This document shows positions 20,799-22,528 of a DNA stretch of 64,000 bases, one piece after another. Source of the DNA: an uncultured Pelagibacteraceae bacterium (lineage in GTDB: Bacteria > Pseudomonadota > Alphaproteobacteria > Pelagibacterales > Pelagibacteraceae). Every line of letters begins with the position of its first letter. Position 1 is the stretch's first letter. The stretch covers positions 372,001-436,000 of the forward strand of contig CACOFY010000001.1 of assembly GCA_902626575.1 (NCBI GenBank). Direction: 5' to 3'. A model generated the notes under the pieces. That model saw nothing but the letters and a program-made list of their open reading frames with translations, searched no databases and was not told the DNA's origin. The position numbers and the translations under genes are program-made.

Positions 20799-21875
20799 TT
20801 AAATTTTGTTTTTTAAAAATCGATCTCTTAAATTATCAATAGGAAAAATGGATCCGTTTCTATTGTAGTGCCAAAATGTCCAACCATTACAACTTTCAGC
20901 ACCTAAAATTGTTGCTGCTACTTTATGGATTGATCCCTCAGTTTGAGCGTGTTTTATACTACCGTCGACCATGATTTTTGCGCTAATTTTCTTTTTATTA
21001 TCAAAAATAGTAGTTCCCGGTTTAATTATTCCCAATTCAACTAACGAGCCAAAAGGTATTCTCGGTTTAGATCTATTATTTTGGAGTGTATCTAAATAAT
21101 CATCTTCAATAGGTTTTGTTTCACTTAATCTTTGTTCTGCAGCCTTGCAGTAATTTTTATCTTTTTCTATGCCAAAATAATTCCTTCCTAATTTTTTTGA
21201 AACTGCAGCTGTTGTTCCAGATCCTAAAAAAGGATCTAAGATATAATCGCTTTTATTTGAGGTTGCTAATAAAATTCTATGTAATAAAGCTTCAGGTTTT
21301 TGTGTTGAGTGTATTTTCTTTCCATTTTTTTTTAGTCTTTCAGTACCACTACAAATGGGTAAATCCCAATTTGATCTCATTTGAATATCATCATTTAAAC
21401 ATTTTAAAGACTGATAATTAAAAGTATATTTTGATTTTTCAGATTTTGACGCCCAAATCAAAGTTTCATGCGCATTGGTAAAACGTGTGCCTCTAAAGTT
21501 TGGCATTGGATTTTTTTTATTCCATATCACATCATTTAAAATCCAAAAACCTAGGTTTTGAATTGCTGTACCTACTCTGAATATATTATGGTAACTTCCA
21601 ATCACCCAAATTGCTCCATTTTTTTTTAAAACTCTTTTACACTCACTAAGCCAAGTATAAGTAAAATCATCGTATGTTTTGAAACTTTCAAATTGATCCC
21701 ATTTATCGTTTACAGCATTTACTTTTGATCTATCTGGTCTAATTAAATTATTTCGTAATTGTAAATTGTAAGGTGGATCCGCAAAAATTAAATCAAAACT
21801 TTCGCTAGGAATTTTTTTTAATTCTTTAATACTGTTTCCATTAACAATTTTATTTTTTAATTTATTATCGATCAT
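20799..21875 (-). CDS. ccrM: CcrM-type adenine-N6 DNA methyltransferase (GANTC)
   Basis: Solitary cell-cycle methyltransferase of alphaproteobacteria that methylates adenine in GANTC. The 358 residues have the beta-class order: DPPY at 33-36 near the N-terminus, the target-recognition region next, then the SAM-binding DPFLGSGTT at 214-222. The C-terminal about 100 residues match the extension found in CcrM proteins (RAMA-like, with GSIHKVAATILG and NGWTFWHY). No restriction endonuclease is nearby. The promoter just upstream contains a GANTC palindrome between -35 and -10, pointing to self-control by methylation. It starts within about 6 nt of the predicted transcript start. Confidence 0.95.
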   Translation of the reverse strand: MIDNKLKNKIVNGNSIKELKKIPSESFDLIFADPPYNLQLRNNLIRPDRSKVNAVNDKWDQFESFKTYDDFTYTWLSECKRVLKKNGAIWVIGSYHNIFRVGTAIQNLGFWILNDVIWNKKNPMPNFRGTRFTNAHETLIWASKSEKSKYTFNYQSLKCLNDDIQMRSNWDLPICSGTERLKKNGKKIHSTQKPEALLHRILLATSNKSDYILDPFLGSGTTAAVSKKLGRNYFGIEKDKNYCKAAEQRLSETKPIEDDYLDTLQNNRSKPRIPFGSLVELGIIKPGTTIFDNKKKISAKIMVDGSIKHAQTEGSIHKVAATILGAESCNGWTFWHYNRNGSIFPIDNLRDRFLKNKI

Positions 21876-21887
21876 TTTTAAAAACTT

Positions 21888-21916
21888 ATTAGACTCTAGG
21901 CTAGAGTCCTCGTCAA
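21888..21916 (-). promoter_or_regulatory. Predicted ccrM promoter with embedded GANTC palindrome
   Basis: On the minus strand a -35 TTGACG (21911-21916), a 17-nt spacer and a -10 TCTAAT (21888-21893) form a near-consensus sigma-70 promoter. The perfect 7-bp inverted repeat GACTCTA-GCC-TAGAGTC (21892-21908) fills most of the spacer, and its inner edge overlaps the -10. Both arms are GANTC sites, the substrate of the enzyme encoded downstream. The predicted start of transcription is about 21881, only around 6 nt before the ATG. Confidence 0.65.
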
Positions 21917-21968
21917 CTTGTGATTGAATTATTTTGAGTCTTTTTGTGGTGGTTATTTTTCGAGACTC
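21892..21968. repeat. Cluster of four GANTC methylation sites
   Basis: GACTC or GAGTC occurs at 21892-21896, 21904-21908, 21936-21940 and 21964-21968, the last just inside the 3' end of rnhB. At this base composition one GANTC per few hundred bases would be expected, so four in 77 bp is a strong local excess. I saw none in the other gene-free gaps I scanned. Confidence 0.85.
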
Positions 21969-22528
21969 AATATGTTGTGTATAGGTTTAAATTTTTTTCT
22001 ATGGAATTTCGTAACTCCAAATTTTTTAAGAGCCCTAAGATGGTCTTTTGTTCCGTAGCCAGCGTTTTTGTGCCAGAAATACCTATGATGTATCTTTGCT
22101 AATTTCTTGATTAATCTATCTCGTGATACTTTTGCAATTATAGATGCAGCAGATATTTCAGGTATCTTTTGGTCACCCTTAATTACGTACTTTAAATTAT
22201 AACTCCTCATATCGGGAATTTTGTTACCATCAACTAATATAATTTTCGGTTTTATTTTTAACTTTTTTATAGCTCTTTTCATTGCAAGTAGACTTGCATT
22301 TAAAATATTATATTTTTCTATTTCCTTTACGGACGCAGAACCAACTGACCATTTTGAATTTTTCTTTATATATTTTTCTAAATTTTCACGCTTATTTTTT
22401 GATAAACTTTTTGAATCTTTAAGTATTTTCTTATTGATGTCATTATTAAGAATTACAGCAGCGGCAAAGACTGGACCAATTAAACTTCCTCTTCCAACTT
22501 CATCCACACCAGCTAAAGTTTTTTTCAT
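21953..22528 (-). CDS. rnhB: Ribonuclease HII
   Basis: Removes ribonucleotides incorporated in DNA. The 191 residues begin with the catalytic block AGVDEVGRGSLIGPV (D9, E10). Further Asp-containing motifs follow in ILVDGNK (about 97-103) and the ASIIAKVSRD block (about 129-138). The length is normal. It starts 1 bp after the uracil-DNA glycosylase stop and is followed, after a 77-bp gap that holds its own promoter, by ccrM. The rnhB-ccrM adjacency is common in alphaproteobacteria. Confidence 0.96.
   Translation of the reverse strand: MKKTLAGVDEVGRGSLIGPVFAAAVILNNDINKKILKDSKSLSKNKRENLEKYIKKNSKWSVGSASVKEIEKYNILNASLLAMKRAIKKLKIKPKIILVDGNKIPDMRSYNLKYVIKGDQKIPEISAASIIAKVSRDRLIKKLAKIHHRYFWHKNAGYGTKDHLRALKKFGVTKFHRKKFKPIHNILSLEK

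Follow-up and report, generated by a model that had tools for sequence, protein, structure and literature searches.

Paired CcrM methylation sites in the predicted promoter of ccrM in a Pelagibacteraceae genome and in alphaproteobacterial relatives

The ccrM locus and its predicted regulators

The window analyzed here is a stretch of 64,000 nucleotides from an uncultured Pelagibacteraceae bacterium (GenBank assembly GCA_902626575.1, contig CACOFY010000001.1), which encodes CcrM downstream of rnhB on the same strand (Table 1). The ccrM product matched the CcrM profile NF050803 with an E value of 3.8e-174 and 578.6 bits, a score below the model cut-off of 830, contained the Pfam domains N6_N4_Mtase and RAMA, and aligned to C. 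crescentus CcrM (6pbd) with an E value of 4.2e-140. GcrA is also encoded, intact, in this genome; thus both CcrM and GcrA are present, with CcrM below the NCBIfam equivalog cut-off and the Pfam domains and 6pbd alignment in agreement. GcrA was found in 33 of the 34 genomes tested of the order and in nine of nine genera. CtrA was not found in this assembly, which is 78% complete; three OmpR-type regulators were present, and the best listed CtrA-model score among the regulators was 119.7 bits versus a cut-off of 350. An excerpt of PMC2877005 likewise gives ctrA as absent in Pelagibacter. An earlier note on this DNA had supposed that the CtrA/GcrA circuitry is reduced, which is not supported for GcrA: its presence here and throughout nearly all of the order indicates that the GcrA/CcrM module is not reduced. 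These observations suggest that CcrM and GcrA can be retained as a module in genomes where CtrA was not found.

Table 1. Features at the ccrM locus, in window coordinates
Feature	Position	Strand	Remarks
ccrM, GANTC adenine methyltransferase, 358 aa	20799..21875	-	profile, domain and structure-sequence matches
Leader, 6 nt, predicted	21876..21881	-	start at 21881 deduced from the −10 position; ATG at 21875-21873
−10 element, TCTAAT	21888..21893	-	17-nt spacer; TCTAAT in 100/102 genus relatives
Proximal CcrM site, GAGTC	21892..21896	.	overlaps −10; adenines at −14 (coding) and −12 (template) if the start is 21881
Palindrome GACTCTA-GCC-TAGAGTC (7+3+7), perfect	21892..21908	.	not conserved
Distal CcrM site, GACTC	21904..21908	.	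within spacer; adenines at −26 and −24
−35 element, TTGACG	21911..21916	-	sequence and conservation in relatives
Dyad TTCAA-N7-TTGAC, candidate regulator site	21912..21928	-	overlaps −35; conserved in genus
Third CcrM site, GACTC	21936..21940	.	about −57; GANTC there in 63/102 genus relatives
rnhB (ribonuclease HII)	21953..22528	-	RNase_HII 3.3e-44; upstream of ccrM, same strand, 77-bp gap
Fourth CcrM site	21964..21968	.	within end of rnhB

A predicted sigma70-type promoter upstream of ccrM

The minus strand between the rnhB stop codon, which ends at 21953, and ccrM reads TTGACG, 17 nt, TCTAAT, as the earlier note had described, and the 17-nt spacer is AGGACTCTAGCCTAGAG. The transcript start was placed 7 nt past the −10 element, at 21881, and all minus-numbered positions are counted from it. 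Across 102 relatives of the genus, the −10 element ends 12 to 15 nt before the ATG. The TTGACG/TCTAAT pair was absent from the list of a promoter scan, because the scan demands an A at position 2 of the −10 element. In this genus the second base of the element is C because a GANTC site overlaps the −10, and the −10 assignment is therefore less certain here, the GANTC having displaced an A at −11 that is elsewhere conserved in the class. With the elements assigned by consensus and conservation, a CcrM site lies within the −35/−10 region of a sigma70 promoter. In our reading, the predicted ccrM promoter is of the sigma70 type with a weakened −10 element, and two CcrM sites occupy its spacer and the upstream edge of its −10.

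The palindrome that the earlier note had seen as filling the spacer and touching the −10 is present, but it takes up 15 of the spacer's 17 bases and extends by two bases into the −10. Both arms are GANTC sites, as had been claimed, and the two further sites described nearby were also found, the outer one inside rnhB. GANTC is depleted in the window (98 sites versus 169 expected from dinucleotide shuffles), and the four sites within 77 bp upstream of ccrM form the tightest four-site cluster in the window, the runner-up spanning 335 bp. The window contains 187 perfect inverted repeats with 7-base arms and a loop of at most 8, and in 32 of them the loop is 3; when at least three G/C per arm are required, nine remain, of which two are the ccrM palindrome in two registers. 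The palindrome alone is less remarkable than the clustering of GANTC, and it looks like a local accident that arises as a by-product when two GANTC sites, each palindromic in itself, are combined with TA.

Conservation within the genus

Upstream regions of ccrM were compared in 103 loci of the genus; 110 of 151 genus genomes gave a match, and seven fragmentary or weak matches were left out. TTGAC-N15-GANTC-TANT was present in 102 of the 103, the sole exception (L018) having TAGTC. Those 102 sequences were the set examined further, such that invariance of the columns in the pattern is by selection, with 1/103 left out. Changes were counted by parsimony on a FastTree tree built from up to the first 160 codons (length 9.5), on which the most variable column changed 27 times. 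Within this pattern-selected set the proximal site was GAGTC in 102/102, with zero changes. The distal site began 3 nt after TTGAC in 49 sequences and 4 nt after it in 46, and was missing in seven. It was kept as GANTC in 95/102 while its middle base took all four letters with four changes; its offset changed once (3 versus 4), and gain or loss accounted for seven changes. This substitution pattern, to judge from the alignment, fits selection on GANTC as such.

The alignment of relatives did not bear out the palindrome emphasized by the earlier note, which was exact in 2/102 and was rejected as the functional unit, but it did show that the GANTC pair is kept, at the frequencies given above. 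Moreover, 76 of the 102 relatives had no inverted repeat of 6 or longer at all. We conclude that the apparent conserved unit is the pair of CcrM sites and not the palindrome, and the conservation of the layout agrees with a promoter activity that would depend on methylation state.

Other genera of the order

Thirty ccrM loci were obtained from 38 genomes of other genera of the order, in which f1 and f2 denote families and g1 to g10 genera. In the second family, TTGAC-N14-GANTC was present in 11 of 11 loci and both sites in 9 of 11. Among other genera of the first family, a proximal site at N14 or N15 was found in 1 of 19 loci (in g4). In g5 and g6, GATTC follows TTGAC; g3 has one spacer GANTC only (2/2 loci), and the spacer is without GANTC in two of three g4 loci and in both g2 loci, the latter keeping TCTATT and AGTCTATT and retaining CcrM and GcrA. 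The GANTC pair is thus not indispensable, since loci of g2, g3 and g4 are without the full pair though GcrA is kept. We also observed GATTCAA-N7-TTGAATC just before the start codon in 9/9 ccrM upstream regions of g5 (L116-L123, L138). The arms of this repeat contain GANTC, and its position differs from that of the palindrome in the window.

The layout across Alphaproteobacteria

Outside the order, 67 ccrM upstream regions (27 plus 40 loci) were analyzed, which were better-ranked matches and not a random sample. TTGAC was present in 59 of the 67 (mean of shuffles, 15.5) and TTGAC-N14-GANTC in 32 (shuffles: mean 0.06, maximum 1 in 100). A GANTC 3 to 5 nt after TTGAC was present in 37 (shuffles, 0.21), and both sites were present in 28 (shuffles, 0.01). 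In a second set, of 80 named loci ranked by how closely they resembled Caulobacter CcrM and assigned to taxonomic orders from their record titles, TTGAC-N13..15-GANTC was found in 42. These comprised 36 of 41 Rhodobacterales loci and six of nine other or unassigned loci; the pattern was found in 0/15 loci of the Caulobacterales-Hyphomonad-Maricaulis group and in 0/15 Hyphomicrobiales loci. All three Ruegeria loci examined carry TTGAC-N14-GANTC. Any GANTC within 300 nt was present in 15/15 of the Caulobacterales group versus 7/15 of the Hyphomicrobiales.

A looser CtrA-type sequence, G[G/T]TAACC, was present in 10/15 Hyphomicrobiales, 1/15 of the Caulobacterales group, 1/41 Rhodobacterales and 3/9 of the others. 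The strict CtrA box TTAA-N7-TTAA was found nowhere in 21870-21990 of the window, a weak test, as the box, with a spacing of N6-8 allowed, occurred in only two of the 80 named loci, neither of them in a CtrA-type group. In Caulobacterales and Hyphomicrobiales, ccrM is described as CtrA controlled (excerpt of PMC2877005).

At the 17-nt spacing, the N14 form has CANNNT as its −10 element, with A at −11 in 32/35 and 42/42 and T at −7 in 34/35 and 41/42 of two locus sets. These letters match the expectation for a −10 and therefore support the promoter assignment. The first base of the element is C in the N14 form because GANTC overlaps the −10, and the middle base of the proximal site varies across the class (C, A or T). 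As GANTC takes one −10 base in both the N14 and the N15 forms, the −10 seems weakened in both, which suggests reliance on an activator. That many relatives in the class carry the enzyme's own sites in the ccrM promoter suggests that the mark helps control its gene.

Other genes with the layout and the position of ccrM in the genome

The pattern TTGAC-N3..5-GANTC-N4..7-GANTC had matches in 117 of 193 alphaproteobacterial genomes, versus 34 for the reversed control. Thirty matching loci, not a random sample, were fetched and searched by tblastn; 12 precede a DivIC/FtsB-like gene, six precede ccrM and 12 neither. The DivIC/FtsB-like loci have TTGAC-N4..5-GANTC-N6..7-GATTC (L333, L336-L338, L341, L342, L353, L355-L359). 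A division gene and ccrM may therefore share this double-site promoter as an old class with few members. Upstream of ftsB in the main genus, the 100 nt inspected contained no GANTC pair like that of ccrM.

Genome-wide, GAGTCTAAT had 11 matches versus three for the reversed control. Besides ccrM, two matches seem by eye to be intergenic (one before hemE, the other at L107); the rest seem to be coding, and a genome-wide GAGTCTAAT regulon was dropped. The locus before what is presumably hemE (L106, G000 C1, about 187,105) carries GAGTCTAAT along with TTAATTAAATTTAATTAAC and TTGTGGATAG, the latter resembling what we take to be a DnaA box, and the region resembles an origin region. A second pattern, TTGAC-N15-GANTCTANNT, had eight matches in 7 of 11 genomes and missed the genome of the window because it required T at the last base. 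Seven of the eight are the ccrM promoter, and a wider regulon by this pattern was likewise dropped. A mutual loop through gcrA was not seen by that route, since 29 of 30 gcrA loci were without GANTC in the 110 nt upstream, one locus (L210) having one. A search for relatives of the promoter in phages gave no match.

In seven of seven complete genomes of the same genus (G012, G081, G153, G155, G161, G163, G165), the distance from ccrM to the best parS-like site is about 0.21-0.22 Mb, or 0.29-0.35 of a replichore, most genome lengths being rounded. In three genomes of other genera this distance is 0.27-0.34 Mb. The distance of ccrM from the origin is not decisive.

Models for the control of ccrM

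We think it reasonably likely, by analogy with the Caulobacter systems, that ccrM has a sigma70 promoter whose activation by GcrA depends on methylation, such that the methylation state of the locus would gate production of the methylase. GcrA, bound to domain 2 of sigma70, would read the methyl-adenines at about −26/−24 and −14/−12 and help open the promoter, and passage of the replication fork would change methylation at the locus and thereby gate the supply of CcrM. The model presupposes methylation of the sites, action of GcrA at this promoter, a transcript start where we have placed it and one particular methylation state as the active one. In published excerpts, GcrA is reported to bind sigma2, to recognize methylated promoters and to stimulate open complex formation (PMC7403470), and in Caulobacter a GANTC between −10 and −35 marks a timed group of start sites, activated at 40-60 min (PMC4287350). 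Full methylation may raise or lower output, the nearest precedents disagreeing on which state is the active one: ctrA P1 of Caulobacter, whose GANTC is near −29 (PMC4287350), is reported to require hemimethylation (PMC8116508), whereas methylation stimulates the ftsZ promoter of Caulobacter, whose GANTC is placed between −35 and −10, and this promoter seemed more active when fully methylated than when hemimethylated (PMC3708114).

Several observations count against methylation-dependent activation by GcrA, among them the g2, g3 and g4 loci and the seven of 102 relatives without the distal site. YGAKTCG, proposed for GcrA activation in Caulobacter, is absent from both strands of 21870-21990, and the authors of a Brevundimonas study report disagreement with the Caulobacter model (excerpt of PMC7987155). 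Near-full methylation in culture also counts against it: 99.86% of GANTC sites were fully methylated in a Pelagibacter culture, whereas in sea samples methylation was seen at 71-95% of the sites and was lacking throughout at 42 of 1719 (excerpt of PMC9516812).

Four other explanations were weighed. Negative feedback, in which full methylation of the −10 and spacer adenines would hinder transcription, with or without GcrA, until hemimethylation relieved it and gave a pulse of CcrM, is rather unlikely in our estimate. It would suit the template-strand adenine of the proximal site, at −12 on the edge of the −10, the hemimethylation requirement of ctrA P1, and the Caulobacter ccrM promoter, where two GANTC sites are present and hemimethylation is linked to increased expression (excerpt of PMC10073500); the behavior of ftsZ speaks against it, and the weak −10 points to the need for an activator. 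We see only a slim chance that control is independent of methylation and that the conserved letters are sigma70 elements plus a site for some other factor in which GANTC occurs by coincidence. A fixed-sequence factor is not expected to keep exactly the degenerate site of the methylase, yet the distal site remains a GANTC despite variation in its middle base and offset, and class-wide the middle base of the proximal site varies too. What such a factor would account for is the proximal GAGTC, uniform in 102/102 genus sequences and joined to an invariant TCTA, and the retention of AGTCTATT in g2 without GANTC.

The dyad upstream of the spacer raises the possibility, which we regard as improbable, that a lineage-specific regulator bound at TTCAA-N7-TTGA controls ccrM and that GANTC merely modulates the regulator or the polymerase. 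TTC[A/T]A-N7-TTGA was present in 102/103 loci of the genus, in 17/19 loci from the family's other genera, where it is mostly closer to the start codon, and in 6/11 of the second family, and the TTCAATC columns are nearly unchanged on the tree. Outside the order it was found in 1/67 and 1/80 loci; a regulator of this kind leaves the GANTC layout of Rhodobacterales and others, where the dyad almost never occurs, unexplained. Moreover, the promoter explains part of the conservation of the dyad, because, for this genus as for the second family, one half is the −35 itself. The CenR motif TGA-N8-TGA (excerpt of PMC9275681) was discarded as an identity for the dyad, as its spacing and orientation differ. 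Finally, a mechanical scan lists the palindrome as terminator-like, with eight pairs followed by AATAAGTTTT, which would make it an intrinsic rnhB terminator or an RNA hairpin. We hold this to be highly improbable and rejected it: the T run is short and interrupted, the pairing is not conserved, as the 76 of 102 relatives without an inverted repeat of 6 or longer attest, and a conserved stem followed by a T run was not found.

We tentatively propose, at slightly less than even confidence, an ancestral alphaproteobacterial ccrM promoter in which methylase sites replaced part of the −10 and which was self-referential, replication gated and GcrA dependent. CtrA control would have replaced it later in Caulobacterales and Hyphomicrobiales, and it would have been kept in Rhodobacterales and in this CtrA-poor marine lineage, with the same double-site type driving the DivIC/FtsB gene in many members of the class. 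A published inference, drawn from ctrA promoters, holds that methylation changes brought about by replication may have little importance in Rhodobacterales (excerpt of PMC8116508); it would need revision if the proposal is true.

Comparison with known systems

The Caulobacter ccrM promoter serves the same gene and has two GANTC sites nearby, but in C. vibrioides (L251) GACTCATGATTC lies downstream of a TTAAC-type sequence and TTGAC-N13..15-GANTC is lacking. For Caulobacter ccrM, methylation sites and an inverted repeat element were reportedly described by Stephens in 1995 and Reisenauer in 1999, the methylation sites being said to lie 3′ of the promoter. Unlike the promoter predicted here, the Caulobacter promoter is CtrA activated (excerpt of PMC2877005). 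In the papers searched, which do not include the early Caulobacter studies of this promoter, we came across no fixed GANTC pair at the ccrM gene.

Methylation-dependent promoters with GANTC in the spacer are a known kind, represented by Caulobacter ftsZ and ctrA P1. The C. crescentus ftsZ promoter resembles the one here in having GANTC between −35 and −10, where methylation stimulates (excerpt of PMC3708114); it drives a division gene, whereas here the gene is that of the methylase and there are two sites at fixed offsets, one of which overlaps the −10. With ctrA P1 the likeness lies in a GANTC in the spacer region, in hemimethylation after passage of the fork and in GcrA (excerpts of PMC4287350 and PMC8116508); unlike the ccrM promoter, P1 drives ctrA, which is absent from the genes found here, and one site is described for it.

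The Rhodobacterales ccrM upstream regions (41 loci among L262-L329) share with the predicted promoter a GANTC 3-5 nt and another 13-15 nt after TTGAC in 35 of 41 loci. They differ in that the proximal site is one base nearer to TTGAC (N14 versus N15) and the −10 is CANNNT rather than TCTAAT. The earlier note's picture of a SAR11 miniature of the Caulobacter layout does not survive these comparisons, as similar layouts occur across the class and Caulobacter L251 differs. They suggest instead that Alphaproteobacteria have more than one type of ccrM promoter, of which that of Caulobacter is perhaps not the typical one.
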